From Phycisphaerae bacterium (GTDB lineage Bacteria > Planctomycetota > Phycisphaerae > Phycisphaerales > SM1A02): a DNA stretch of 64,000 bases. A program made the translations under genes and the position numbers. The stretch spans positions 1 through 64,000 of the forward strand of contig JABHZL010000075.1 of NCBI GenBank assembly GCA_018656645.1, given 5' to 3'. This document shows, piece after piece, positions 1-64,000 of the stretch. Position 1 is the stretch's first letter. Every line of letters starts with the position of its first letter. The notes under the pieces were generated by a model. It saw only the letters and a program-made list of their open reading frames with translations. It was not told the origin of the DNA and did no database searches.

Positions 1-318
1 CTTCACGCTCCTCGCGACAGATTGCAATCGCTTCCCTCGGTGCTCACTCTCACGCGTTCAACACTGCTGCGGTGTTTCGTTAGTGAGAGTGGCATTCGGA
101 AATCGTTTGCTGCCTGTCACGTCGTCGCGTTCCATCGGTGACCCATAAAGGGTCACCTGCTTCACGCTCCTCGCGACAGATTGCAATCGCTTCCCTCGGT
201 GCTCACTCTCACGCGTTCAACACTGCTGCGGTGTTTCGTTAGTGAGAGCGGCATTCGGAAATCGTTTGCTGCCTGTCACGTCGTCGCGTTCCATCGGTGA
301 CCCATAAAGGGTCACCTG
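1..318. repeat. 159-bp tandem repeat, two copies, hairpin-rich
   Basis: Unit 1 (1-159) and unit 2 (160-318) are identical except T90 versus C249. A third copy begins at 319 but diverges after five bases (CTTCA). The array may continue left of the window. Each unit can fold into a long imperfect hairpin: GACAG at 16-20 pairs with CTGTC at 114-118, ACTCTCAC at 46-53 with GTGAGAGT at 83-90, and AACAC at 60-64 with GTGTT at 72-76. A second perfect 8-bp hairpin lies at 137-157 (GGTGACCC, loop ATAAA, GGGTCACC). No open reading frame of note is present. It is either a palindromic intergenic repeat or a structured RNA; function unknown. Confidence 0.9.
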
Positions 319-333
319 CTTCAGACACCTTGT

Positions 334-16119: not shown

Positions 16120-16905
16120 CTAGTGTAAAAGCCTTGTTGCGACTTCTAGTATTTTTTCTTTAATTGACAAAAATGATTCAACAACCATGGGGTCAAAGTG
16201 GCTACCGCTTTCTTTTTTGATGATTGCAATCGCTTCATCGTGCGACATTGCATCTTTGTAGACACGTTTTGAAGTGAGCGCGTCATAGACGTCAGCCACT
16301 GCGACAATCCGAGCTGGTAAATTATTTGTGTTACCCCGCAAGCCGAATGGATACCCCGTGCCATCCCATTTTTCATGATGACCAAGCGTAATTTGAATTG
16401 CAGTGTCCACCCACGGATCACGGCCAAGTTGCTCTGATAATGAAATTAAAATATCTGCACCAATCGAAGTATGCCGTTTCATGGAATCAAATTGTTCGCT
16501 TGTGAGTTTGTTCGGATTGAGCAGGATGTCGTCGCCAATACCTACTTTCCCAATGTCGTGAAGAATAGAGGTTGCTCCTATGATTGGAACTTCTGTTTTT
16601 GAGAGTTGTTCTGGGTGTAATTCAGAATATGCCGTTGCGATCAGTGTTGTGTAATGCCTAATTCTTGAGAGATGCTTTCCAGTATCGTCATCCCGAGATT
16701 CGGCAAGTTTGGCAAGTCCGACAATGATCGCCATTCTAGATGGTGGAGGTTCCCCTTCGGTTTGTTCAGAATGAAGAAAGGTTAATTTTGACTCGGCTGC
16801 GATTCGTGCTTGTTTTTCTACTTCAAGCTCAGCGCGAAGTGAAGCGACCTCATCTTGCAGAGAAAGGGTTGGGTTTTTTCGTACGATTGTTGGGATTGCG
16901 GTCAT
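16120..16905 (-). CDS. HD-GYP domain c-di-GMP phosphodiesterase
   Basis: 261-aa cytosolic protein. A short coiled coil at about residues 17-45 precedes one HD-GYP domain. The metal/catalytic motifs are present: HLSRIRHY, LHDIGK (His116, Asp117), a further HH at 176-177 and DGTGYP (about 181-186), then VADVYDALTS. The full HHE...GTGYP signature predicts hydrolysis of cyclic di-GMP. It has no receiver domain, unlike the RpfG type, so its input is through the N-terminal coiled coil or a partner. The start lacks both Shine-Dalgarno and a -10 hexamer at 6-8 bases, so it is somewhat uncertain. Confidence 0.9.
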   Translation of the reverse strand: MTAIPTIVRKNPTLSLQDEVASLRAELEVEKQARIAAESKLTFLHSEQTEGEPPPSRMAIIVGLAKLAESRDDDTGKHLSRIRHYTTLIATAYSELHPEQLSKTEVPIIGATSILHDIGKVGIGDDILLNPNKLTSEQFDSMKRHTSIGADILISLSEQLGRDPWVDTAIQITLGHHEKWDGTGYPFGLRGNTNNLPARIVAVADVYDALTSKRVYKDAMSHDEAIAIIKKESGSHFDPMVVESFLSIKEKILEVATRLLH

Positions 16906-50701: not shown

Positions 50702-50852
50702 AGGTTTGCGCGGCTCCTCGGAAGAGGGGGGCTTCATAAGCCAAATGCTGGTGGCCAGGATGGCCTACGTACAACCCGAGGTTCAAGATCGCTGTGATCT
50801 TGAGCATGAACCCAAACAACCGGCAACGAAGTTGCCAAAGGGAGCCCAACCC
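50702..50852 (+). promoter_or_regulatory. Structured 5' leader of the pilin gene
   Basis: Several strong hairpins lie in series. CTCCTC-GGAA-GAGGGG (50714-50729) has a GNRA tetraloop. GGCTT/AAGCC (50730-50742) and GGCC/GGCC (50753-50765) follow. TCAAGATC/GATCTTGA (50783-50803) competes with GGTTC/GAACC (50780-50812). GGCAAC-GAA-GTTGCC (50822-50836) abuts the Shine-Dalgarno AAAGGGAG (50837-50844). Alternative pairings next to the ribosome site suggest a cis-regulatory RNA. I could not match it to a known riboswitch class. Confidence 0.45.
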
Positions 50853-51272
50853 ATGAATACTCTAACCCTTTCACCTAATACAAATCGCCGAAATGCCTTC
50901 ACGCTGATTGAAATTCTCATTGTCGTTGTCATTCTTGGCATTCTTGCAGCCGTTGTAGTTCCACAATTCACAAATGCTGCTGATGATGCCAATGATGCTG
51001 CTGTTCGCACTCAACTTCAAACGCTTCGCGGACAAATTGAACTTTACCGAGCACAACAAAGTGCTGACCCAGCATTGCTTACAACCGGTTGGGATGATTT
51101 GACTGACAATAATTACTTGATGCTCGATCCATCGAATCCACTTACCGGGTCATCCACAGTAGCTGCAGGTGGCGCAAGCGCTGCAACTGATGGTTGGATT
51201 TGGCGTGACAGTGGAAATGGAACTTTCGGACTCTACGCAGTCGCGGCTAATGGTACAGAATTCGTAGAATAA
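50853..51272 (+). CDS. Type IV pilin/major pseudopilin
   Basis: 139-aa prepilin. A short basic leader (NTNRRNA) is followed by the N-terminal helix FTLIEILIVVVILGILAAVV with Glu at +5. The residue before the cut is Ala, not the usual Gly. The C-terminal part is small and GspG-like (TLRGQIELYRAQQSAD). ATG 50853 is fixed by AAAGGGAG eight bases upstream. The gene has its own structured leader and a strong terminator, consistent with high expression relative to the assembly genes that follow. Confidence 0.9.
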   Translation: MNTLTLSPNTNRRNAFTLIEILIVVVILGILAAVVVPQFTNAADDANDAAVRTQLQTLRGQIELYRAQQSADPALLTTGWDDLTDNNYLMLDPSNPLTGSSTVAAGGASAATDGWIWRDSGNGTFGLYAVAANGTEFVE

Positions 51273-51303
51273 AACGCTCCCTGCCACCTCGGGCAGATTA
51301 ACG

Positions 51304-51340
51304 CAAGGCACACAATGGAGGTTGTGTGCCTTGTTTATTT
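51304..51340 (+). terminator. Strong intrinsic terminator after the pilin gene
   Basis: CAAGGCACACAA (51304-51315), six-base loop, TTGTGTGCCTTG (51322-51333): a perfect 12-bp stem followed by TTTATTT. It separates the pilin from the pilus assembly operon. Confidence 0.9.
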
Positions 51341-51489
51341 GGATGTCGTATCCGGTCCTGTATCAGAAGTTGGTCCGATAATGAAATGAGAATGTTTTTT
51401 GAGCGTGTAAGTGGTTGGTTTTCCTTGTCTTGGCATCGCAATAAGTCGATGCAGCAATGAGATAGAAGCCGCAAGATGCGGAGTTCAGT

Positions 51490-52083
51490 ATGAAAAAACA
51501 CGAAATTACACAATCTTACGCTTTTGCAAGATCTGGATGGTCTCTCGTAGAGTTATTGACTGTCGTTGTCGTACTTGGCATCGCGGCTATGATTGTGATT
51601 CCGTATGCAGCATCTGGTGCTTCAGCATCTGGGCAATCAGCAGCAAGGCTTCTTGTTACAGATATGCTTTCTGCACAAATGGACGCTGTTGCCACACAGA
51701 AATTTCGACGTGTGCATTTTTACAGCGATGGATCTGGTTGGTGCATCCTTGAACTAGAGTCGGATGAACTTGCAGATCCATTTGATCCAATGGCGGCAAC
51801 GTATGCAGACGATGCAGTTGAATCGCAGGGCCAAAACCAGCAATCTATTATCGATTTTGTGCAGGACTCAAGATTCAGAGATATCACTGTAGAAAACCTG
51901 AACTTCGGAACAGGAATTGAAGAGATCACTTTTGATCTAACAGGCGGGATCATCCAAAACGACGGTTCTCCAAGCCTTGGTGGAAGTGTAGATATCACGA
52001 GTGGAGAATTTACTTGGACAATCACGCTTGCGCCTCTCACAGGGAAAATTTCGGTAACTGAAACCACTGGGGGCGCGCCCTAA
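51490..52083 (+). CDS. GspH-like pseudopilin
   Basis: 197 aa. The prepilin signal ends RSG before WSLVELLTVVVVLGIAAMIVIP, with Glu at +5 and an unusual Trp at +1. A beta-rich C-terminal domain similar to minor pseudopilins (GspH/FimT) follows, with FTWTITLAPLTGKISV at the end. GGAG six bases before the ATG. The stop codon is immediately followed by the pilM-like ATG. Probably part of the pilus tip or initiation complex. Confidence 0.8.
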   Translation: MKKHEITQSYAFARSGWSLVELLTVVVVLGIAAMIVIPYAASGASASGQSAARLLVTDMLSAQMDAVATQKFRRVHFYSDGSGWCILELESDELADPFDPMAATYADDAVESQGQNQQSIIDFVQDSRFRDITVENLNFGTGIEEITFDLTGGIIQNDGSPSLGGSVDITSGEFTWTITLAPLTGKISVTETTGGAP

Positions 52084-53139
52084 ATGTTTGGTTTTACGCA
52101 GACAATGAAGGGTTGCATTGGAATTGCAATGCAATCAACAAATGTAACAATTGGCCAATGTAGTTGGAGAAAGGGTTATTTACAGAACCCTCGTGTTTCT
52201 AACATTGAGGATAATCCTCGAAACATATCTTCGCAAGATTGGCGTGCTGCAATCAATAACGCAGGATTAACTGGAACAACATGTTCAGTTGCACTTCCAC
52301 CTGCGATTTTGGAACACCACGTGTTGCAATTGCCAGAAATGGGAATGAAAGAATTAACAGAAGCGGTAGGTTGGGAACTTGCAGATCGACTTGGCAGTGA
52401 CCGTGAACTTCTTCAGATCGATGCAAAACGGCTAGGAAATGGTGGTGATGTACTAGGAGTATCAATTGACCAAGCAACTCTTACGAGTATTCTTGAACCA
52501 CTCTATGCAGCTGGTTTACGACCAACTTTGATTGAGCCAACATGTTTTGCACTTACGAGAATGTTATCAATGCGACATCGCCGAAACGCAGATCGTGCTT
52601 CTGTACGAGCAGTATTAGATTTTTCAAAAGCTGATTCAGCGATGATGGTGCTCGCAGGCGACGACACAGTGTTTTACAAACGCCTTGGATACTCAGGTGA
52701 TTCACTTATCGATGCAGTGTCTTCACATGTAGGTGTCACGACAGACCAAGCAGCATTGATGCTTGCAGCATCAGATCAAGAATCCGATGAAGCGATGAGC
52801 AGAGCAGTTCGTGATGCAACCCGTGCGCTTCACGAACAAATTGCAAGAGATGCAATGAAGTGCTTACGACATTACGGCGTGACAAGCCGAGGACCGATCC
52901 CTTCCGAATTGGTTGTGACTGGTAGTGCAGGCTGGAACAGAAATTTGTCTGAAATACTTGAAACAGCGTGTAATTTGTCAGTTTTTCCTGATTGGAACAT
53001 TGAATATCTCAAAGAGTTTTCTAAAACAAGTTCACGGTGTTACGGATGGCAAATAGCACTCGGAACAAGTTTAAGTTTTTGTGAAAGCAATGATCGACGT
53101 AAACAAACAGAAACAAATAACGGAGGAGTTGCAGCGTGA
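52084..53139 (+). CDS. PilM-like actin-fold pilus assembly protein
   Basis: 351 aa, cytosolic actin-like fold. The segment LPEMGMKELTEAVGWELADRL matches the PilM ILPxM...EAExxIP-type region. VRAVLDFSKADSAMMVLAGD and LVVTGSAGWNRNLSEILE correspond to the nucleotide-pocket strands. It should bind the PilN N-terminus (NLLPEQY, present in the next gene). Start directly after the GspH stop; end overlaps pilN by four bases. Confidence 0.82.
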   Translation: MFGFTQTMKGCIGIAMQSTNVTIGQCSWRKGYLQNPRVSNIEDNPRNISSQDWRAAINNAGLTGTTCSVALPPAILEHHVLQLPEMGMKELTEAVGWELADRLGSDRELLQIDAKRLGNGGDVLGVSIDQATLTSILEPLYAAGLRPTLIEPTCFALTRMLSMRHRRNADRASVRAVLDFSKADSAMMVLAGDDTVFYKRLGYSGDSLIDAVSSHVGVTTDQAALMLAASDQESDEAMSRAVRDATRALHEQIARDAMKCLRHYGVTSRGPIPSELVVTGSAGWNRNLSEILETACNLSVFPDWNIEYLKEFSKTSSRCYGWQIALGTSLSFCESNDRRKQTETNNGGVAA

Positions 53140-53735
53140 ATTTGCTCCCAGAACAATATATTCAAAGAAGTAAAAATCGTGTACGTTCTAGCAGAGTTGC
53201 AATCATAGTCATTGTTGCTTTGGCTTCCGTTGTTGCAGTTGCAACGCACTCCCGGATTGCAGTAAACAGTGCAACTGAAAAGTTAGTTGTGGCACAGGCA
53301 AGAGCGAATGGCGCATTAGAAGTAGAAGCCGACGCAACAACGTTGGAGTTAAAAAAGGAAAAACTCAAAACTTTCGTTGATAAATATCAAGAAACTGAAT
53401 TACCTTTTGCAGTTGGCGACATTATTTCAACAATCACAAATGCACTTCCCATAAATGTCACAGTAGAAGAACTCTCGTTTGATGTTTTTGAATCAGAGGA
53501 CGAAAAGTTGATAACTGGACATATTGCAGGCTTTGGATCAAGTGACGAATCAATTGCATCTGTTGTTTCAAATTTTCAAACAAAACCTCCGTTCGAAAAT
53601 GTCACGATGGATTTTAGTAGGTCTAGAACGATCCGTGGCGTACGCGCAAGAGGATTCCGTATGAGTTTCTCAATTGATTTATCCCATAATTGGGAAATAC
53701 AAACAGTTATGGCATCAGAAGGAGAACAACAATGA
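53136..53735 (+). CDS. PilN-like inner-membrane alignment protein
   Basis: 199 aa from a GTG. It opens NLLPEQYIQRSK, the PilM-binding motif of PilN. One membrane helix follows at about 20-40, a coiled coil to about 85 and a small ferredoxin-like periplasmic domain. Operon position between PilM and PilO confirms it. Four-base overlap with both neighbours. Confidence 0.85.
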   Translation: MNLLPEQYIQRSKNRVRSSRVAIIVIVALASVVAVATHSRIAVNSATEKLVVAQARANGALEVEADATTLELKKEKLKTFVDKYQETELPFAVGDIISTITNALPINVTVEELSFDVFESEDEKLITGHIAGFGSSDESIASVVSNFQTKPPFENVTMDFSRSRTIRGVRARGFRMSFSIDLSHNWEIQTVMASEGEQQ

Positions 53736-54289
53736 CTGCAAGGAAAGAAAAATGGATGTTGATAGGTACGTTTGTGCTTGCAGTGCTTGTTACTTTTTGT
53801 TTTGCTGTTCCAAACTATAAGACCGCCACAACAAACGTGGAAGAAGCAAGGCGATTAGAAGACCGAATTAACAAACTTGAACGCAGACAGGTTGAAGTGC
53901 AAAACTTGCGTGAAGAATACGATGCTTTGGTATTGCAAGTAGAAAATGAATACAAAAAAGTTCCAGCATCTCCAGACACTGCGCAGATCGTGCAAGCATT
54001 GTCATTAGAAGTTGATGGTATGCATGTGCTTGACCAAAGTTTTGTTGCTGGTTCCACAAACAACCAAACAAAAAGCGGTGCATTTTCTGTTCAACCACTT
54101 GCTATTACGATGGAAGCAGACTTCGAGTCAATATTTTCCGTAATTCGACAAGCTGAATCAATGGGCAGATTAGTTCGTGTAAGTTCTGTACGAATCACTC
54201 GTCCTGATCGAGACGCTGATTCTTCCTCTGCAATTTTAGAAGCTGCAGTAGGTTTGCACGCACCATTTAATCCAATGGAGGGACGTTGA
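53732..54289 (+). CDS. PilO-like inner-membrane alignment protein
   Basis: 185 aa from ATG 53732, overlapping the pilN stop (ATGA). A short cytosolic stretch (MTARKEKW) is followed by one membrane helix at about 9-28, a coiled coil (VEEARRLEDRINKLERRQVEV) and a PilO-like alpha/beta domain. It pairs with PilN in the periplasm. The frame open from 53690 lies inside pilN and is not part of the gene. Confidence 0.82.
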   Translation: MTARKEKWMLIGTFVLAVLVTFCFAVPNYKTATTNVEEARRLEDRINKLERRQVEVQNLREEYDALVLQVENEYKKVPASPDTAQIVQALSLEVDGMHVLDQSFVAGSTNNQTKSGAFSVQPLAITMEADFESIFSVIRQAESMGRLVRVSSVRITRPDRDADSSSAILEAAVGLHAPFNPMEGR

Positions 54290-54290
54290 T

Positions 54291-54833
54291 ATGAAATTCA
54301 AACGACAAATGAAAAGAACGTGGCTGCAAATTACACATGATCGAAAACAATTCGGAGTTTTTTGCGGACTCCTTCTTGTTGGGTTACTCCTCTGGGCAAG
54401 GATCATTGTCATAGCAAGACCGCCACGTACAGCCATTGCTGATGAAAATATTTCTACGTCAGTTGCGTCGAACATTGCATCCGATAACCACAAAGCCGCG
54501 TTTCCAATCTGGCTTGACCATGAACCCAACAGAAACCCGTTCCAAGTCAGCAACGATGTGTTTCCAATCGTGACACAACCGACCGATAATGTGAGCGTTC
54601 AAGCTGTCAATAATGGCAATGATACGGAACAACAAGCGATATCAATGTTGCAATTAGAAGCAATCATGGGGGACCTGGCGATGATCGATGGCCATGTATT
54701 TCAAGTTGGTGATGTTGTATCTGTGTCTTCTATGACGGATACGCTGACACTTGAAAAAGTTCATCGGCGTTCTGTCATCATTTCGGTCGGAGAGCGCCGA
54801 TATGAACTAACGATCGCGTCTCCTCGTCGATAA
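54291..54833 (+). CDS. PilP/GspC-like periplasmic adaptor
   Basis: 180 aa. One membrane helix at about 23-42, a disordered stretch, then a small HR-type domain at about 120-178 (LEAIMGDLAMIDGHVFQVGDVV, then VHRRSVIISVGERRYEL). This GspC/PilP-style fold contacts the secretin N-domain. It is placed directly before the secretin gene. Assigned on position and the C-terminal pattern; sequence similarity is weak and it is not a lipoprotein as PilP usually is. Confidence 0.7.
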   Translation: MKFKRQMKRTWLQITHDRKQFGVFCGLLLVGLLLWARIIVIARPPRTAIADENISTSVASNIASDNHKAAFPIWLDHEPNRNPFQVSNDVFPIVTQPTDNVSVQAVNNGNDTEQQAISMLQLEAIMGDLAMIDGHVFQVGDVVSVSSMTDTLTLEKVHRRSVIISVGERRYELTIASPRR

Positions 54834-54865: not shown

Positions 54866-56560
54866 ATGAAACATTTTTCACTTTTATTTTCACTTTTACT
54901 TTGTTGGGCTCCTGCCTTTGCGCAGGAAACAACTGCGCCAGAAGCAGACCCAGTTGAGACATCTGTCGTTGTAGACGAGTTTGGCACTGTTGATCTTGTA
55001 GTAAACGAAACAGAAGTAACACAGGTACTTGAAATGTTGGCGATTCAAAGCCGGCGGAATATTATTTCTTCAAATAGTGTGACTGGCGTAGTCTCTGCTA
55101 ACTTATACGACGTTACATTCAATGAAGCACTTGAAGCAATTTTACGAGTCAATGGATTTGGATATGTTGAAGAAGGCAACTTTGTATATGTTTATACGAT
55201 TGACGAACTTGAAACAATAGAAAAAGCAAGGCGCAAAACAGAAAGCCGTATTTACGAACTACAATTTTTATCAGCGGCAGACGCTGACGAATTTGTTAAG
55301 CCATTGTTGAGCGAGGACGGTGAAGCAGCATTTCGCGGAACAGTCGATGCAGGGTACCAGCCTTCTTTAGAAGATGGTGGCGGCGACAGTTATGCTTGGT
55401 CAAGCAAATTGGTTATAAACGATTACCCTGAAAACCTTGATGCGATCACAACGTTACTAAACGAACTTGATACAGCGCCGATGCAAGTGGTCGTTGAAGC
55501 TACCGTTGTCCTGACGAATGTTAATGAAGATAATGAGTTTGGTGTCGACTTCACAGCACTTTCGAACATAAACATTGGCAGCATCGCAGGTGGTCCACTT
55601 GCAGCAGCATCAGATGTAATTTCTGGCACATTTGGGGCGGCTAATACGAGCGCTGTTACTTCAGGTGTTGGACAAACAGAAACTGCAGTCTCTGGGGGAC
55701 TTAAAGCAGGGGTGATAAAGGATCACGTTGGTGCATTCCTAAGAGTCCTTGATCAAGTTGTTGATACAACCGTGCTAGCAAGACCAAGAGTTACTTGTCT
55801 TAATAGACAACGTGCAGAGGTTCTCATTGGTGTTCGATATGGTTATCTCTCGTCAACCCAAACAGATACAAGTACTACGCAATCGGTAGAGTTTCTCGAC
55901 ACTGGTATTCATCTTATTTTTAGACCGTTCATTTCATCCGATGGAACGATCCGTTTGGAATTACGACCAAGTGTCTCATCCGCAGCACTTCACCAAGATG
56001 GTGGGCAACAGGTGCCTGATGAAACTACACAACAACTCATGACAAATGTACGTTGCCGCGATGGCGAAACAATTATTCTTGGTGGTTTGTTTAAAGAAAG
56101 CACTACGGTTACAAGAAATCAAGTACCAATTCTTGGAGATATACCAATTCTTGGTGCAGCATTTCGCGGTCAAGTTGACAGCGTGATAAAAGAAGAAATT
56201 ATCTTTTTACTCACACCGTCGATTATTCCTGATGAACGGCTTTGGGAATCAGGAAAGGATTCACTCGCAATTGTTGAAGCAGTCAGAATTGGTGCACGGT
56301 CAGGCTTATTGCCATTTAGCCGCGATCAAATAACTTCAAACTACAATCGCGACGCGTTAGATGCTTACCGTCAGGGTGATCTAGATCGCGCGCTGTACTG
56401 GACTAACTTGTCACTTCGAACCTCGAAAGTACAACCCGAAATGATGCGACTTAGAGAAAACATTACAGATGAATCAAAATCAATTTGGGAACGTGATTTA
56501 CTACGTGAACTATTAACAGTACCAAATACAAAAGTGAGTTCTGTCGAGGTTTCCCAATAA
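54866..56560 (+). CDS. Secretin (PilQ/GspD-like outer-membrane channel)
   Basis: 564 aa with signal peptide (cut near AFAQ-ET). An N-terminal STN/N0-like domain (about 45-120; VTQVLEMLAIQSRRNIISS) precedes an N1/N3-like domain. The secretin core at about 200-460 includes VEATVVLTNVNED, the conserved RDGETIILGGLFKE and VPILGDIPILGAAF. It lacks AMIN domains, so it is smaller than classic PilQ. The C-terminal about 90 residues are helical. Its TAA shares one base with the next ATG. Confidence 0.92.
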   Translation: MKHFSLLFSLLLCWAPAFAQETTAPEADPVETSVVVDEFGTVDLVVNETEVTQVLEMLAIQSRRNIISSNSVTGVVSANLYDVTFNEALEAILRVNGFGYVEEGNFVYVYTIDELETIEKARRKTESRIYELQFLSAADADEFVKPLLSEDGEAAFRGTVDAGYQPSLEDGGGDSYAWSSKLVINDYPENLDAITTLLNELDTAPMQVVVEATVVLTNVNEDNEFGVDFTALSNINIGSIAGGPLAAASDVISGTFGAANTSAVTSGVGQTETAVSGGLKAGVIKDHVGAFLRVLDQVVDTTVLARPRVTCLNRQRAEVLIGVRYGYLSSTQTDTSTTQSVEFLDTGIHLIFRPFISSDGTIRLELRPSVSSAALHQDGGQQVPDETTQQLMTNVRCRDGETIILGGLFKESTTVTRNQVPILGDIPILGAAFRGQVDSVIKEEIIFLLTPSIIPDERLWESGKDSLAIVEAVRIGARSGLLPFSRDQITSNYNRDALDAYRQGDLDRALYWTNLSLRTSKVQPEMMRLRENITDESKSIWERDLLRELLTVPNTKVSSVEVSQ

Positions 56561-57759
56561 TGCGAATAATTTTATTAGCATTCATTTTGTCTGCCGTAAG
56601 TTGCGGTCCAACGAAAACCGGAAAATTAGCTCGGCAAAAAGCGCATGCTCGAATGGATCTTATAAATGCAGATCTTGCATCGGAGCAAGCCCGTCAACAA
56701 TTTGAAGTGGGGCAACTAGAGACAGCAATTACAACGATTGATATAGCTATTGACAGGTACCCCGAAAAATCAGAGTACCATCAACTACGGGGGCGAATTC
56801 TCCTTGAACAACACAAACTTGACGATGCAAAGAGCGCGTTTGAAACATCTATATCACTGAATCCAAAATCAGCAGAGTCCCATTATTTGCTTGGTGTTTT
56901 ACATCAACGATGGTCAAATGATGAATCTGCTTTACAGTCGTACTCTGCAGCTAGCGAAATAAATCCGTCACACGCACAGTTTTTTTTAGCAAAGGCAGAA
57001 ACACTTGTTGCGCTTAACCGCGATGATGAAGCAATTGAATTGCTTCTAGGAAACAATCGGTTTCAGCACCAAGCATCAATTCCAGCATTGCTCGGACATA
57101 TTTATTTGCGTTTGGGTAAATCAAATCTTGCTTCGCAATATTTTGCAGATTCAAGAGCTCTAGGGAACGACGATCCAATTCTCTTCGCGGATCTTGCAAT
57201 TGCTGAATTTCGTGCAGGTTTATACGCACAATGTTTGATGACGCTTCGCGAATTAGAAACGATAAAGAAAGATGGACTCACGACTCTGCAACAGAGAATC
57301 CGAGGCAAAAGTCTTGCTGCAACAGGAAGGTTGATGCAGGGACGCGACATTTGTTTGTCAGTCACAAGGGAGACCCCTCAAGACGCGGATGCCTGGATAG
57401 ACCTCGGATACATTGCTTGGAAAATGGGTGATTATCGGAGGTTAGAACAGTGTGGAAATGAAATTTCTAAACTTGCTCCTTCGAGTTTCGAAGGACCACT
57501 CTTTATAGGAAAAGCGGCTCAGCACGCTGGAAACAACGTTTTGGCGGCAGATTCGCTCGCCGTTGCGGCTTCACTCTCAATGAATGAAGAACTCGCTGCT
57601 TGGATTGTTGCAAGTTCAAATGAAACAATTGGGAAAAGTGCAACAGTTCTGCAAGAAGCACCAAATATGCCAGCAAAAACTGCCGAGAAGGTAACTGAGG
57701 AACCGATCCTCGGGCTCGTTGAGGGAAGCGAGCCCTTGGTGACTGTTCCCCAAAACTAG
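56560..57759 (+). CDS. TPR lipoprotein of the pilus operon
   Basis: 399 aa. Lipobox LSAVSC with lipidated Cys15. About eight TPR-type helical hairpins run through residues 40-370 (ETAITTIDIAIDRYPEKSEYH, LDDAKSAFETSISLNPKSAESHYLLGV). Position right after the secretin suggests a pilotin/PilF-like role in secretin assembly or localisation. It is longer than PilF (six TPRs). TAATG junction with the secretin gene. Confidence 0.85.
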   Translation: MRIILLAFILSAVSCGPTKTGKLARQKAHARMDLINADLASEQARQQFEVGQLETAITTIDIAIDRYPEKSEYHQLRGRILLEQHKLDDAKSAFETSISLNPKSAESHYLLGVLHQRWSNDESALQSYSAASEINPSHAQFFLAKAETLVALNRDDEAIELLLGNNRFQHQASIPALLGHIYLRLGKSNLASQYFADSRALGNDDPILFADLAIAEFRAGLYAQCLMTLRELETIKKDGLTTLQQRIRGKSLAATGRLMQGRDICLSVTRETPQDADAWIDLGYIAWKMGDYRRLEQCGNEISKLAPSSFEGPLFIGKAAQHAGNNVLAADSLAVAASLSMNEELAAWIVASSNETIGKSATVLQEAPNMPAKTAEKVTEEPILGLVEGSEPLVTVPQN

Positions 57760-57816: not shown

Positions 57817-59079
57817 GTGACCACTTTAACTTTGTACATCCTGATTACCGCCTCAGCAGGCACCATTGCAGTTGCAGCTCTTGCAGTTGCTCGATATTGG
57901 TTCGTTCAGTTGCATGTCGCAAAAAATGAGATGGAAAAAGCAATTCACGGTGTGGAAACGGCACGCAATGAAAGCGAAACGGCTCGGATCCACGGATGTA
58001 TTGATCGAACGCGACGTCGTCAAGCAGAGGCAGTCTTTGATGTTTTACGAGACGCTGTGATCGTTGTAGATGCCCATGGTGAAATTTTGCATGCCAACGC
58101 AGCTGCGGGTGGGCTTCTAAGCGTGTCCCCAGAAGAGGCCGCCGGCAAAGTGATGGCTGACATTGTTAACGACCACCAACTTGCATCAACAATAACAGAA
58201 GCTCGAAATGGTTTGCCTTCCGAAGGACGTCTTTGTGAACAAGAACTTTCCTACGCAGGGCAACCGGTTTCTTATGAAGTGCACCTTCAATCAGTTGGTG
58301 GTCAAGAAGAACCAATGCACGCAGTTGTAACCGTTCTTCGTGACCTTTCACGTGAACGAGAAGTTGCACGGCTAAAAAGTGACTTTGTTTCAAAAGCAAG
58401 TCACGAACTTCGTACACCACTTTCGTCCATTTCTGCATATATTGAAATGCTCGTAGATGGCGATGCAGCAGACGAAGAATCTCGCAATGAGTTTTACAAA
58501 GTAATTTCGACTGAAACAGATCGCTTGCGTCGTCTTATTGACAACTTACTAAATATCAGCCGTATCGAAGCTGGGTTGATGCACATCGAACGTGAACAAG
58601 TTCAAATTGGCGAGTTAGTAGAGCGGGCTGTCAAGAGTATGTCGCATCAAGCAAAAGAGAAAGAACAAGAAATACATACAAAACTTGCAAAAGTAGATTT
58701 GACTGTTACAGGTGATAGCGACATGTTGTACCAAGTAATTGTTAACCTGTTGTCAAACGCAATTAAATACACGCCGCAAGGTGGTCGGATAACCGTCGTT
58801 GCAGATGCAGACCATCTGACGAGAAGTTTGCACCTTTCAGTTGCAGACACTGGTCTGGGCATTGGGCCAGACGAAACAGATAAAGTCTTTGATAAGTTTT
58901 ACCGAGTAGAAAATTACCGTCGAATTGCAAACGGTACTGGGCTTGGTTTGAACCTCTGTCGTCACATCGTAGAAACACTCCATAACGGACAAATTGGCTT
59001 AGATTCAACACTCGGAATGGGATCACGTTTTTGGTTCACCATTCCAATGGTTGAACGATCAGGAAGGGCAGCAGCGTAA
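57817..59079 (+). CDS. PAS sensor histidine kinase in the pilus operon
   Basis: 420 aa, GTG start. One N-terminal membrane helix (about 4-30) and a short coiled coil are followed by a PAS domain (about 75-180; LRDAVIVVDAHGEILHANAAA). The HisKA dimer helix has phospho-acceptor His at about 196 (SKASHELRTPLSS), and a full HATPase domain follows (N-box NLLSNAIKYTP, GLGIGPDETDKVFDKFYR, GTGLGLNLCRHIV). The PhoR-like architecture has no large periplasmic sensor, so it probably senses a cytosolic or membrane signal. It shares one base with the regulator gene. Confidence 0.92.
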   Translation: MTTLTLYILITASAGTIAVAALAVARYWFVQLHVAKNEMEKAIHGVETARNESETARIHGCIDRTRRRQAEAVFDVLRDAVIVVDAHGEILHANAAAGGLLSVSPEEAAGKVMADIVNDHQLASTITEARNGLPSEGRLCEQELSYAGQPVSYEVHLQSVGGQEEPMHAVVTVLRDLSREREVARLKSDFVSKASHELRTPLSSISAYIEMLVDGDAADEESRNEFYKVISTETDRLRRLIDNLLNISRIEAGLMHIEREQVQIGELVERAVKSMSHQAKEKEQEIHTKLAKVDLTVTGDSDMLYQVIVNLLSNAIKYTPQGGRITVVADADHLTRSLHLSVADTGLGIGPDETDKVFDKFYRVENYRRIANGTGLGLNLCRHIVETLHNGQIGLDSTLGMGSRFWFTIPMVERSGRAAA

Positions 59080-59483
59080 TGTCGCATCGAATTCTCGTCG
59101 TAGATGACGAAACTCACATTTTACAAGTGCTTTCACTCAAACTTCGAAACAGTGGTTTTGAAGTATCAACTGCAGTTGACGGCGAAGACGCATTGCGCCA
59201 AGCAATTGAAAATCCTCCAGATCTAGTGATTACTGATATTCAAATGCCATACATGAATGGGATTGAATTGTGCAACGCACTCTTTGAAAATGAAACGACC
59301 ACTCATATACCAGTTGTTGTCATTACAGCACGTGGACACACACTCGCGGCAAGTGAGACTGATATTGCAAATGTTCAAGAGGTAATTAGTAAGCCATTTA
59401 GCCCTCGCGGTGTTGCAGAATTAGCAATTTCTATACTTGCAAATATTTCAACACAACGTTCAGAAAGACCGGAGGCCGCGTGA
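59079..59483 (+). CDS. Single-domain response regulator
   Basis: 134 aa, receiver domain only: acidic pocket Asp9-Asp10, phospho-acceptor Asp53 (LVITDIQMPYMNG), Thr/Ser region VVITARG, Lys in ISKPFSP. No output domain, so it acts like CheY or PilG/PilH by protein contact, perhaps with the HD-GYP or STAS protein encoded next. One base overlaps the kinase gene, and GTGA overlaps the next. Confidence 0.93.
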   Translation: MSHRILVVDDETHILQVLSLKLRNSGFEVSTAVDGEDALRQAIENPPDLVITDIQMPYMNGIELCNALFENETTTHIPVVVITARGHTLAASETDIANVQEVISKPFSPRGVAELAISILANISTQRSERPEAA

Positions 59484-61111
59484 GCACATTTGGACATAAA
59501 TTATCACCGTCTATTGCACGGAATGACAGTATTTTCACGCAACTACGAAGTGCTGGATTAGTCGTTGTTGAGTGCACAACGATGGGCAAAATTGAACACG
59601 AGCCAACACGCGGTGAAGATTGGTTTGCAGACTTGCTACTTTCATCACCAATCGTTCGAACCGCAATTTCTACAAGTTGCCGAACATGTTTGTCAGATGA
59701 TCAATGCGCAGCAACGGAAGCAATTCCCGGGTTGTGGATTGTTCCAACGCCAGTTTCGTCCGATCGTCGATCAAGCGGCTATGCAGTGGCACTTATTGTG
59801 ACAGAAGAGTTACTCGCAAGCGAGTATGTGCACGCACTATGCCAAGCATCTAATGCAGAAGTGGGTGTTGTTCGCGATATGATTCGTGATCTTCCACCAG
59901 CCGCACCTCAAGATATTCCACGATTGTCTTCTCTTTTTCAACTTGCATGGAATGCACATCGATCACACAGTGAAAACAAAGGTGTGATCGAAGACATTGG
60001 TCGCGAGCTCGCTGATTCGTATGAAGAAATAAACTTGTTGTACACAATCACTGGTAACATGAATTCGGTTAATCATCCAGAACGGTTTATCGAATTGGCT
60101 TGCGGTGAGTTACTAAAGAATATGCCTTATGGTTGGGTCGGCGTGCAATTGCGAACGGGCAATCGTCTTCCAAACCCAGGAAATGAATTACTTATTAGCG
60201 GTGAAACAAAACACGATGCATCACAGTTATCAAATATTGTTGCAGCGCTCACGTGTGACATTGCTTCCGGAATGCCAATTATTGCACACAGTGGTGATCA
60301 CATTTCTCAAAGACTCGGCGATGGAACGATTGTTGTACCAATCGAAAATGACGGATATGTGATCGGTGTTTTGATTGCTGCTGAAAAGCAGGGGACCGAC
60401 ACAACGGTTTCCTCTGTTGATGTCAAAATGTTGAATGCAACCGCATCACAACTTGGAATCTTTCTAGAAAATGCATTGTTGTATGAAGACCTCAGCGCAA
60501 CGTTTCTTGGCACACTCGAAGCTCTTACTGCTTCAATTGATGCGAAAGATCGGTACACCTGTGGTCATTCTCAAAGAGTCTCACTTCTCACTGCACAACT
60601 TGCAGAGGCCGCAGGTCTCTCAGAAGTTCAAGTAGATCGATTCAGAATTGCTGGTTTGGTGCATGACATTGGAAAAATTGGTGTTCCTGAATCGGTTCTC
60701 CTAAAGAAAGGAAAACTGACTGATGAAGAATATCAAACTGTCCAACAACACCCTGAAATTGGCGCGCGTATTTTGAGAGATATCCCACAAATGGAGGATA
60801 TTCTTGGCGGCGTATTGCATCACCACGAACGTTTTGATGGCGGTGGTTATCCGCACGGTCTTGCACAAGAAGATATTCCACTTGTTGCTCGGATTATCGC
60901 GATTGCAGATACGTTTGATGCGATGTCATCAAGTCGAACATATCGAAATGCGATGACTCGAACGTCTGTTCTTGATGAAATGAAACGATCAATTCCAGGA
61001 CAGTTTGATCCCGAACTAGCAGAGATCTTCTTTAATCTGGATTTTTCTAAGTGGGAAGAACTCATGATTGAACATCAATCTGGACAAACGAACGAAAGGT
61101 TAGCAGCATGA
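59480..61111 (+). CDS. GAF/HD-GYP c-di-GMP phosphodiesterase in the pilus operon
   Basis: 543 aa. An N-terminal region of about 160 residues has a Cys cluster (SCRTCLSDDQCA). A helix follows, then a GAF-like domain at about 195-335 (EEINLLYTITGNMNSV, VVPIENDGYVIGVLIAAE), then a C-terminal HD-GYP domain. The latter has CGHSQRV, LVHDIGKIG (His395-Asp396), LHHHERFDGGGYP (about 446-458) and IADTFDAMSSSR. All catalytic motifs are intact. The Cys cluster could bind metal or a redox group. ATGA overlap with the STAS gene. Confidence 0.92.
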   Translation: MSTFGHKLSPSIARNDSIFTQLRSAGLVVVECTTMGKIEHEPTRGEDWFADLLLSSPIVRTAISTSCRTCLSDDQCAATEAIPGLWIVPTPVSSDRRSSGYAVALIVTEELLASEYVHALCQASNAEVGVVRDMIRDLPPAAPQDIPRLSSLFQLAWNAHRSHSENKGVIEDIGRELADSYEEINLLYTITGNMNSVNHPERFIELACGELLKNMPYGWVGVQLRTGNRLPNPGNELLISGETKHDASQLSNIVAALTCDIASGMPIIAHSGDHISQRLGDGTIVVPIENDGYVIGVLIAAEKQGTDTTVSSVDVKMLNATASQLGIFLENALLYEDLSATFLGTLEALTASIDAKDRYTCGHSQRVSLLTAQLAEAAGLSEVQVDRFRIAGLVHDIGKIGVPESVLLKKGKLTDEEYQTVQQHPEIGARILRDIPQMEDILGGVLHHHERFDGGGYPHGLAQEDIPLVARIIAIADTFDAMSSSRTYRNAMTRTSVLDEMKRSIPGQFDPELAEIFFNLDFSKWEELMIEHQSGQTNERLAA

Positions 61112-61443
61112 ACATTGCAAGTGAACAACATGTAGCAGCTATGGTAATTAGAATCGATGGTGAATTAACAGCAGATGGTTCTGACAACTTCAAACGCAAC
61201 ATACTTGATGTAGCCGACAGTTTTGCATCCGATATTATCGTCGATTGCACATCATTATCATTGATTGATTCGGTTGGGCTAGAGTCACTCCTTTGGCTAT
61301 CCGATGAAGCAAGAAGGAACAAATCTCGCCTTCGTCTTGCGTGCGTTCCTGAAACCGTGAGCAATATTTTTCGCCTCACGCGACTAGATGGTGCATTTAG
61401 CACCCACCAAAATGTAGAAGCTGCAGCAAGAAGCCTTAACTGA
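61108..61443 (+). CDS. STAS-domain protein (anti-sigma factor antagonist type)
   Basis: 111 aa. Single STAS domain with the phosphorylatable Ser55 in LIDSVGLESLLWL and the usual flanking strands (IIVDCTSLSLIDS, RLRLACVP). In SpoIIAA/RsbV systems this serine is phosphorylated by an anti-sigma kinase. No kinase of that type and no PP2C phosphatase is encoded nearby, so the partner lies elsewhere or the protein serves as a local switch for the kinase/HD-GYP module. Eight bases before pilB. Confidence 0.88.
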   Translation: MNIASEQHVAAMVIRIDGELTADGSDNFKRNILDVADSFASDIIVDCTSLSLIDSVGLESLLWLSDEARRNKSRLRLACVPETVSNIFRLTRLDGAFSTHQNVEAAARSLN

Positions 61444-61451
61444 ATAGAACT

Positions 61452-63176
61452 ATGAATAAGCCAATTTCAATCCCAAACGATCTCACTTCTCAAGCACCAC
61501 TTGGGCAGCTGTTGTTGCAAAGTGGAAAAATTACACAAGCGCAACTCGAGCAAGCGCTTGATTTACAAAACAAAAGTGATGAGCGAAAACTTATTGGTGA
61601 AGCACTTGTGGAACTTGGTTATGTTGATGATGCAACCGTGCTTGAAGCAATTGCTGGGGCGTATGACATCCCATTTGCAACAGACACAGCTCGTTTAGCC
61701 GACCCGCAAGTAATTGAAGAATTGCCACGAGAGTTTCTTGAAGAACATGGTGTACTTCCGCTTTTCCTTATTGGTGGCATGTTGACTGTTGCTGTAAGTG
61801 AACCCGCAAACCTTTATTTACTTGAAGAAATTGAACGCAGAACCGGACACTCGGTTCAGATCGTTGCTGCAACTGCAACTGATATTGCCGCTGCCCACAA
61901 ATCCTACTTACCAGCTGCAAACGTATTTGTCATTGACGAAATATATGAAGATATTGATGAACACGATTTCACTGTCATAGAGCATCAAACAACTGAACTT
62001 GCAGATCTTGAAGAAGATGCTGGGCATGGCCCTGTTGTGAAACTTGTGAATTATTTGATTTACTCTGCAGTACAAGAGGGCGCATCAGATATTCATATAG
62101 AGCCCGGCGATCATTCGCTTCGCGTACGAAATCGAATTGACGGGAAATTGTTTGAAAAGATTCAACCCCCATACAAAATGCATCAAGCAATTGCAAGCCG
62201 AATTAAAATTATGGCGAACCTCGACATTTCAGAACGCCGACTTCCACAAGATGGCGACTTTAATGTGATGATGGATGGCAGACCAATTGATTTACGTGTC
62301 TCGACTATGCCAAGTAAATTTGGTGAAATTGTCGTCATGCGAATTATTGACAGTCAGAATAATAATTTGTCGCTTGATCAACTTGGTTTTAATGAAACAA
62401 TGTTGTCGCAATGGAAAAACGTAGTTGAACAACCAAATGGTGTTGTGCTTGTAACAGGACCAACAGGTTCTGGTAAATCAACGACGCTTTACAGCGTATT
62501 GTCACAACTTGATACAGATGAAATAAATGTTGCAACGATTGAGGATCCAATCGAAGCGCAAATACGTGGAATCAATCAATCACAAATTAATAACAAAGCT
62601 GGTTTTACTTTCTCGTCTGCACTGCGGTCCATGCTTCGACAAGATCCAGATGTATTAATGGTTGGTGAAATTCGCGACAATGAAACAGCAGGGATCGTGT
62701 CGCAAGCTGCGTTGACAGGGCACCTGGTCTTCTCGACGCTGCATACGAATGATTCAGTAAGTGCAATCACACGTTTAGTTAACCTTGGCGTTGAACCTTA
62801 CCTTGTGGCAGCAACAATTCGCGGTGTTCTTGCACAGCGCCTTGTTCGCAAAATATGCCCGCATTGCAAGGAACTTTGGCAAGGTGAAGATGCGATTCGC
62901 GCTGCCTGTGATGGAGCAGAAGAATTATGGAAAGGCGCTGGCTGTAGTCGGTGCCGAGGAACTGGATTCGCAGGTCGAATAGGCATTTTTGAGTTGCTTG
63001 TTCCAAATGCAGAGTTGCTAGATTCGATTAGTCGAGGCGATTCGCTTCAATCGATGCGTCAAAAACTTGTAACCGATGGTCACTGGTTACTTCGTCAAGA
63101 TGGTATTGAAAAGGTGCGAAATGGTTTGACTACTCCTGAAGAAGTTCTCTGCGTGACGCAAGGGAATATCCAATGA
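61452..63176 (+). CDS. PilB/GspE-type pilus extension ATPase
   Basis: 574 aa hexameric cytosolic motor. The N-terminal MshEN-type domain (about 14-165; PLGQLLLQSGKITQAQLEQA), a c-di-GMP-binding fold in some relatives, is followed by the AAA+ core: Walker A GPTGSGKST (Lys about 342), Asp box, Walker B VLMVGEIRDNETA and His box TLHTND. The tetracysteine zinc site has CPHC and CSRCRGTGFAGR. It powers pseudopilus or pilus assembly and overlaps the pilC-like gene by four bases. Confidence 0.95.
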   Translation: MNKPISIPNDLTSQAPLGQLLLQSGKITQAQLEQALDLQNKSDERKLIGEALVELGYVDDATVLEAIAGAYDIPFATDTARLADPQVIEELPREFLEEHGVLPLFLIGGMLTVAVSEPANLYLLEEIERRTGHSVQIVAATATDIAAAHKSYLPAANVFVIDEIYEDIDEHDFTVIEHQTTELADLEEDAGHGPVVKLVNYLIYSAVQEGASDIHIEPGDHSLRVRNRIDGKLFEKIQPPYKMHQAIASRIKIMANLDISERRLPQDGDFNVMMDGRPIDLRVSTMPSKFGEIVVMRIIDSQNNNLSLDQLGFNETMLSQWKNVVEQPNGVVLVTGPTGSGKSTTLYSVLSQLDTDEINVATIEDPIEAQIRGINQSQINNKAGFTFSSALRSMLRQDPDVLMVGEIRDNETAGIVSQAALTGHLVFSTLHTNDSVSAITRLVNLGVEPYLVAATIRGVLAQRLVRKICPHCKELWQGEDAIRAACDGAEELWKGAGCSRCRGTGFAGRIGIFELLVPNAELLDSISRGDSLQSMRQKLVTDGHWLLRQDGIEKVRNGLTTPEEVLCVTQGNIQ

Positions 63177-64000
63177 GCGCATTGGCAGCAAAAGAAACCT
63201 TTGCTTGGAAAGCTCGCGACACGCACGGTCGTGAGTTATCTGGTTCCCAAGTTGCAGTGTGTGAATCGGAAGTCGCCGGAACGCTTCGGTCGAAGGGATT
63301 GTACGTTACAGCAATTGATCCAGAACCATTATTGCAAGGCGATATTGAACAAGTCAGAACATCTCGCACAGAAATCGCTACTGCGATGTCACAAAGAAAA
63401 GTCAAGCGTGATGATGTGATTGCTTTTTGTCAACAACTTGGTGTGATGCTTGAAACAGGTGTTCCACTTTCGGAATCTCTTGGTGCACTTGCAAAACAAA
63501 CGAAGCAAAAAGAATTCAAAATTGTTGTCGAAGGCATTCAAAGAGAAGTTCAAGGCGGTGATTCACTTTCAATTACACTTTCTAGGAGACGTCGTGTTTT
63601 TCCTCGCATCGTTGTAAGTCTTGTTCGTGCATCTGAACTTTCTGGCACAATGCCATTGATGCTTGAACGCGTTGCAACATATCTTTCTAGTGAACGAAAA
63701 ACTGTTCGCGAAGTAAAAGGTGCGATGACATATCCAATGATCATGGGTTTTACAGCCGTTGTAGTTACAGCGCTGATAGTAACCTTCATTCTTCCACGCT
63801 TTGCAAAAATTTATGAAATGCGATCGGCTTCATTGCCATGGCCAACAAAGGCATTGCTTACAGCGAGTGATTTATTGCTTACAAATTGGATGTATTGGAT
63901 TCCAGCTCTGCTAGCAACTATTATTGCTGCAGTTGTGTGGTACAAAACCTCATCTGGTCGAAGCGCTGTCGATTGGCTGAAATTAAAGCTTCCTGTCTTT
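63173..64000 (+). CDS. PilC/GspF-like inner-membrane platform protein (runs off the window)
   Basis: The frame is open from ATG 63173 to the window end (276 codons, no stop). It starts MSALAAKETFAWKARDTHG, the usual GspF opening. The first T2SSF domain contains FCQQLGVMLETGVPLSESLGAL and FPRIVVSLVRASELSGTMP. The first membrane helix lies near residues 185-205 (MTYPMIMGFTAVVVTALIV), with a second near 232-255. ATGA overlap with pilB. The C-terminal half is outside the window. Confidence 0.93.
   Translation, partial: MSALAAKETFAWKARDTHGRELSGSQVAVCESEVAGTLRSKGLYVTAIDPEPLLQGDIEQVRTSRTEIATAMSQRKVKRDDVIAFCQQLGVMLETGVPLSESLGALAKQTKQKEFKIVVEGIQREVQGGDSLSITLSRRRRVFPRIVVSLVRASELSGTMPLMLERVATYLSSERKTVREVKGAMTYPMIMGFTAVVVTALIVTFILPRFAKIYEMRSASLPWPTKALLTASDLLLTNWMYWIPALLATIIAAVVWYKTSSGRSAVDWLKLKLPVF

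Follow-up and report, generated by a model that had tools for sequence, protein, structure and literature searches.

The 64,000-nucleotide window analyzed here (contig JABHZL010000075.1, positions 1 to 64,000) comes from a Phycisphaerae bacterium with a 2.0-Mb draft genome of 98% completeness, whose nearest named relatives are marine metagenome assemblies labelled Phycisphaerae or Phycisphaerales. It contains an operon for a type IV pilus/type II secretion-like machine, in which two pseudopilin genes are followed by pilM-, pilN-, pilO- and pilP-like genes, a secretin gene, a gene for a tetratricopeptide repeat (TPR) protein, four signalling genes, pilB and pilC. The signalling genes, hereafter the module or cassette, code for a histidine kinase (HK), a stand-alone receiver (REC), a GAF-HD-GYP protein (HDGYP) and a STAS protein. 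An initial annotation had placed them between the TPR gene and pilB, joined by overlaps of 1 to 4 bases, and both the open frames and the Pfam domains agree with that description. Read from the DNA, the overlaps are 1 base between HK and REC (TAATG), 4 bases between REC and HDGYP (GTGA) and 4 bases between HDGYP and STAS (ATGA); an 8-base gap separates STAS from pilB, which overlaps pilC by 4 bases. The overlaps and the short STAS-pilB spacing suggest that the four genes and pilB are translationally coupled. Scans for promoters and terminators performed at about chance level.

Relatives, the class and the phylum were searched for full-length HD-GYP orthologues, and stretches of DNA as long as 19 kb were mapped domain by domain with profiles built from an order-level set, yielding 118 mapped loci. 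The order HK-REC-HDGYP-STAS-pilB recurs at 62 loci, which represent 44 genera and 16 family-level groups within the class. The four genes are thus clearly conserved with the pilus genes in relatives, as a gene-order survey proposed in the initial annotation had been meant to determine. Orthologues recur down to about 30 to 40% identity, and named loci from the genome collection give the same picture of gene order. This recurrence across loci, genera and family groups rules out chance or an annotation artefact. The gene 5′ of the operon was seen in just two loci of the same genus, indicating that local gene order is in general not kept. In other classes and phyla, the set of pil, REC, HK and STAS genes is missing from the neighbourhood of the top-scoring HD-GYP matches, and the idea that the module extends across the phylum or farther was therefore set aside. 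Co-conservation throughout the class lends weight to the earlier proposal of a dedicated local control module, and the four genes are very probably an integral control unit of the machine. Two public records titled Actinomycetes and Candidatus Kuenenia (L239 and L224) carry Phycisphaerae module genes, and their titles are apparently wrong or the bins mixed.

Residue conservation was scored across about 90 loci, comprising primary and secondary sets. Both phospho-acceptors of a two-component pair are in place, i.e., His196 of the kinase in 72/72 primary loci and Asp53 of the receiver, together with Lys105 and Pro109, in 76/76. The HD-GYP protein scores 140.7 bits with HD_5; its GAF domain is weak by sequence and visible in the structure model, which has a mean predicted local distance difference test score (pLDDT) of 82.4 and finds its best PDB match in the GAF-HD-GYP cyclic di-GMP (c-di-GMP) phosphodiesterase 4mcw (E value of 5.5e-19). 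His363, His395/Asp396, Lys399, His424, His448/449, Gly456-Tyr457 and Asp477 never vary across the 79 primary and 11 secondary sequences scored, and Pro458 is present in all but one of them. With the HD and GYP motifs and the metal ligands of its family complete, the protein is probably a c-di-GMP phosphodiesterase. The model of its first ~140 residues is confident (mean pLDDT of 86.2); this N-terminal domain matches no Pfam family and shows weak PAS/GAF-like fold matches. A second HD-domain gene in the window codes for a protein that shares 36% identity with the HD-GYP protein over residues 353-520 of the latter. The STAS protein (61.8 bits with Pfam; 62.1 bits with TIGR00377, for a cut-off of 53.45) is of the RsbV/SpoIIAA type, with a phosphorylatable serine in a DS motif. 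This residue, Ser55, is found in 70/70 primary and 11/11 secondary sequences (81/81) while position 57 close by is variable, so Ser55 looks selected. Catalytic residues of the secondary set are the same as those of the primary set wherever sequence is present.

Table 1. Features of the window. Coordinates refer to the 64,000-nucleotide stretch.
Feature	Position	Strand	Details	Basis
Histidine kinase (HK)	57817..59079	+	One N-terminal membrane segment (by inspection), PAS, HisKA (His196), HATPase_c; PhoR/WalK/PnpS-like	Pfam/NCBIfam
Stand-alone receiver (REC)	59079..59483	+	Response_reg only, Asp53, conserved KPFSPR	Pfam
GAF-HD-GYP protein (HDGYP)	59480..61111	+	N-terminal domain (residues 14-142), coiled coil, GAF, HD-GYP with intact motifs	Pfam, model
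N-terminal domain of HDGYP	59519..59905			Model
Single-domain STAS protein	61108..61443	+	Phosphorylatable-type Ser55 (codon 61270-61272)	PF01740, TIGR00377
PilB/GspE-type assembly ATPase	61452..63176	+	T2SSE and MshEN N-domain	Pfam/NCBIfam
PilC/GspF inner-membrane platform protein	63173..64000	+	Continues beyond window end	
Two prepilin-type pseudopilins	50832..52083	+	GspG-like, GspH-like	
PilM/GspL-, PilN-, PilO-, PilP/T2SSB-like machine genes	52084..54833	+	Individual frames 52084-53139, 53136-53735, 53690-54289, 54291-54833	Pfam/NCBIfam
Secretin	54866..56560	+	PilQ/GspD family	Pfam/NCBIfam
TPR protein	56560..57759	+	PilW/Tgl-like by repeats; directly 5′ of module	Pfam/NCBIfam
Second HD-domain gene	16162..16704	-	270-residue frame	
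Tandem repeat at window start	1..323		159 bases, two copies, 99% identity	

Among 99 loci, REC directly precedes HDGYP in 91. The remaining eight consist of six in which the open frames overlap, one of them a fusion (L062), and two true exceptions (L056 and L205). The fusion, located in a PilQ-TPR-HK context, is a single frame of 530 residues that runs from Response_reg through GAF to HD_5 and has the receiver where the N-terminal domain would otherwise be. The initial annotation had reasoned that a lone receiver must act on a neighbour; the in-frame fusion backs this claim and indicates that the partner is probably the phosphodiesterase. With the fusion as the best evidence, REC probably acts on the neighbouring GAF-HD-GYP protein, the two forming a split RpfG-like unit. 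In the RpfG type the receiver is covalently joined to HD-GYP, whereas the window has separate genes, and L062 is the only fusion among the primary loci. The pair would therefore work like the RpfG type without being a member of it.

STAS-pilB linkage was scored for pilB genes near HD-GYP-type loci with at least 600 readable bases upstream, a sample and not a census of pilB. STAS was found directly 5′ of pilB in all 80 of 80 such cases, a second motor lineage included. STAS does not adjoin the other PilB-type genes of the window's genome, at L190 and L191, and no STAS was found upstream in 26 of 30 PilB loci from module-lacking or exceptional genomes. The second motor is a distantly related PilB-PilC(-PilM) cluster with HK-STAS directly 5′ of pilB (L072, L076, L193-L200, L328, L329 and L331; no HK was seen in L328 and L329, which are short) and, in several genomes, with REC-HDGYP a few kilobases off, often divergent. 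Its PilB proteins branch deeply as a clade of their own, with PilBs without STAS lying between them and the primary clade, and its REC-HDGYP proteins nest inside the primary module tree. On the simplest reading of these trees, a REC-HDGYP copy was added to a different motor in which HK and STAS were already present. Resolution is poor in the trees of STAS and of HK, and the second-cluster sets of both look like old separate clades, so that we infer duplication for REC-HDGYP only and not for the whole four-gene set.

Gene content, overlaps, conservation, intact catalytic residues, the REC-HDGYP fusion and the linkage of STAS to pilB in two motor lineages are observed features of these loci. As a whole they are best explained, in our view with moderate confidence, if the cassette is a dedicated control unit of the type IV pilus/type II secretion-like machine. 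HK would phosphorylate the lone REC, which would bind the neighbouring GAF-HD-GYP protein and set its c-di-GMP phosphodiesterase activity, like an RpfG made of two polypeptides. The STAS protein would serve as a docking or switch protein for PilB, with RsbW- and SpoIIE-type enzymes from elsewhere in the genome probably adding and removing a phosphate at its conserved serine. The cassette would in this way tie motor activity to a sensed signal and to the local level of c-di-GMP. Every protein contact in this scheme, as well as the direction of each effect and the nature of the enzyme that phosphorylates STAS, is predicted from sequence. In its most specific form, which we put forward only tentatively, the STAS protein would be a PilB partner gated by serine phosphorylation, i.e., a partner switch with an assembly ATPase as its output in place of a sigma factor, in one operon with a split RpfG-like phosphodiesterase and serving two distant motors class-wide.

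Several observations weigh against a dedicated control unit of the motor. Three genomes (G024, G331 and G373) keep HDGYP and REC near the secretin and TPR genes, with HK as well in G331 and G373, and they have neither STAS nor a primary-type PilB there. Another, G321, keeps STAS with HDGYP while PilB sits elsewhere. Finally, in six genomes of the same family group PilB comes straight after PilO-PilP, with no STAS beside it and no full-length HDGYP orthologue; since these genomes retain a PilB of the primary clade, the machine can run without the module. Conversely, STAS-PilB is kept and HK, or HK and REC, are missing in L171, L172 and L205, and set against the losses in G024, G373 and G331 this indicates that the module divides into two sub-sets. 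The linkage of STAS, PilB and HDGYP is thus strong, not absolute. The PilBs of the six genomes without the module branch within the primary clade and share a long stem, and 0% of bootstraps unite the STAS-bearing primary PilBs to their exclusion. The tree favors loss of the module in these relatives, which the approximately unbiased (AU) test leaves unproved, as the alternative is not rejected (p = 0.075).

A further point of this kind comes from the N-terminal domain of PilB. MshEN motifs were scored against the published consensus of two 24-residue motifs ending in Gln (PMC5013675; extended in PMC11731258). The MshEN domain of the window PilB is above the Pfam and NCBIfam cut-offs. Its motif I (residues 16-39) is mostly kept, starting with Pro and not R/K/L, and the Gln of this motif is found in 75/76 homologues. 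Motif II (residues 47-70) is degenerate, with a terminal Ala in place of Gln, and its Gln is present in 2/46 scorable homologues, 30/76 being below the scoring limit. Of the earlier suggestion that this domain may bind c-di-GMP, the presence of the domain and of one half-motif stands, but the second motif is without the essential Gln almost throughout, which makes direct c-di-GMP binding by PilB doubtful. Speaking for the scheme, by contrast, a single GGDEF protein and no PilZ protein turned up in the genome, which argues that MshEN proteins are most likely its c-di-GMP readers.

The STAS protein might act on the HD-GYP protein and not on PilB, as HsbA does on the diguanylate cyclase HsbD (PMC6482189), its phosphorylation state determining where the phosphodiesterase sits or how active it is, and pilB simply following in the gene order. 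The hsbA-hsbD precedent, the 4-base overlap of the STAS and hdgyp genes, and the presence in G321 of STAS with HK-REC-HDGYP and PilB elsewhere fit this idea. We nevertheless hold it to be somewhat unlikely, as STAS is found between HK and PilB in the second motor with REC-HDGYP kilobases away and often divergent, and as the loss of the primary PilB in G024, G373 and G331 goes with that of STAS while HDGYP remains. The protein might also feed a transcriptional partner switch of the RsbW-sigma type and so regulate pilus operon expression without touching the motor itself. This appears unlikely, because the best RsbW of the genome adjoins a STAS of its own (C123:26181/26552) and because a regulator acting in trans needs no fixed place before pilB, even though RsbW-type kinase and SpoIIE-type phosphatases are encoded in the genome and the protein matches the anti-sigma antagonist family TIGR00377. 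No RsbW or SpoIIE gene was found near the pilus clusters of the 118 mapped loci, and a role for STAS in a local sigma switch was set aside on this ground. The initial annotation's statement that no anti-sigma kinase or phosphatase is present for STAS accordingly holds for every mapped cluster and fails for the genome, where genes of both types lie elsewhere. The arrangement typical of partner switches, with a cognate kinase and a PP2C phosphatase encoded alongside STAS, is not found here.

The four genes might, lastly, be passengers that inheritance and co-expression have held in the operon and whose targets lie outside the machine. Their coupling to the machine is predicted from gene context, and the six related genomes manage without them. 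Simple passengers, however, would not be expected to hold their order over 16 family groups when the gene 5′ of the operon recurs in only two loci of one genus, to keep invariant active sites, or to have REC-HDGYP duplicated into the neighborhood of a second motor, and we judge this explanation improbable.

Family-specific profiles with curated cut-offs were used to tell a pilus from a secretion system. Scores were 579 for GspE (cut-off of 630), 564 for PilB (676) and 208 for PilQ (284), and no equivalog cut-off was reached by the ATPase, secretin or pilin scores. The machine may be of either type. The order of the PilM/N/O/P-like genes is kept among the mapped relatives, and so is the position of the TPR gene before the module in most primary loci. 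Elsewhere in the genome there are three PilT genes, and at L190 (G000:C6) two PilB-type genes without STAS stand on either side of a PilT gene, each with a half-motif that has an R/K start and the Gln.

The cassette resembles several known systems in part. As in the PdeK-PdeR-FimX-PilZ-PilB pathway of Xanthomonas (reviewed in PMC11656802), a two-component pair with a c-di-GMP phosphodiesterase output would bear on a pilus motor, but that pathway uses an EAL output, a fused receiver, FimX and PilZ, whereas HD-GYP is found here and no PilZ in the genome. That review of PilB control makes no mention of STAS or HD-GYP. RpfC-RpfG likewise combines a kinase, a receiver and an HD-GYP output, with REC and HD-GYP fused as in L062; in contrast, nearly all genomes here encode REC and HD-GYP separately, the kinase is a simple PAS kinase and not an RpfC hybrid, a GAF and an unnamed N-terminal domain are added, and the genes lie inside a motor operon. 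The phosphodiesterase PmGH (4mcw) is the best fold match over GAF and HD-GYP; unlike it, the protein described here has an extra N-terminal domain, an operon context and an activity that is predicted. The HsbR-HsbA-HsbD system of Pseudomonas aeruginosa likewise has a STAS antagonist in control of a c-di-GMP enzyme and of the surface life style (PMC6482189), but HsbD makes c-di-GMP, and the HsbR kinase/phosphatase belonging to that system has no counterpart in the cluster. SypA/SypE, RsbV/RsbW and SpoIIAA/SpoIIAB share the single-domain STAS with a conserved phosphorylatable serine, SypA having outputs other than a known sigma factor (PMC8256260); here, in contrast, no cognate kinase or phosphatase is adjacent and STAS is fixed beside pilB. 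The closest solved sequence to the module STAS is TM1442. The c-di-GMP-controlled motors MshE and PilF also have an MshEN domain, which is over both cut-offs here, but the degenerate second half-motif resembles GSPII-A of PilF, which does not bind c-di-GMP (PMC11731258).

No description of the cassette was found in the open-access literature, subscription journals being largely outside coverage (STAS with PilB and HD-GYP; Phycisphaerae type IV pili and c-di-GMP), and the cassette appears to be previously undescribed. Local control of pilus motors by c-di-GMP is already known; what appears to be new is a cassette tied to one machine class-wide, with a STAS switch protein before the motor gene in every mapped case near HDGYP-type loci. 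The pairings of REC with HD-GYP and of STAS with PilB are testable predictions for the control of pili or secretion in bacteria about which almost nothing is known in this respect. If the proposed role of STAS is true, partner switching could extend past the control of sigma factors.

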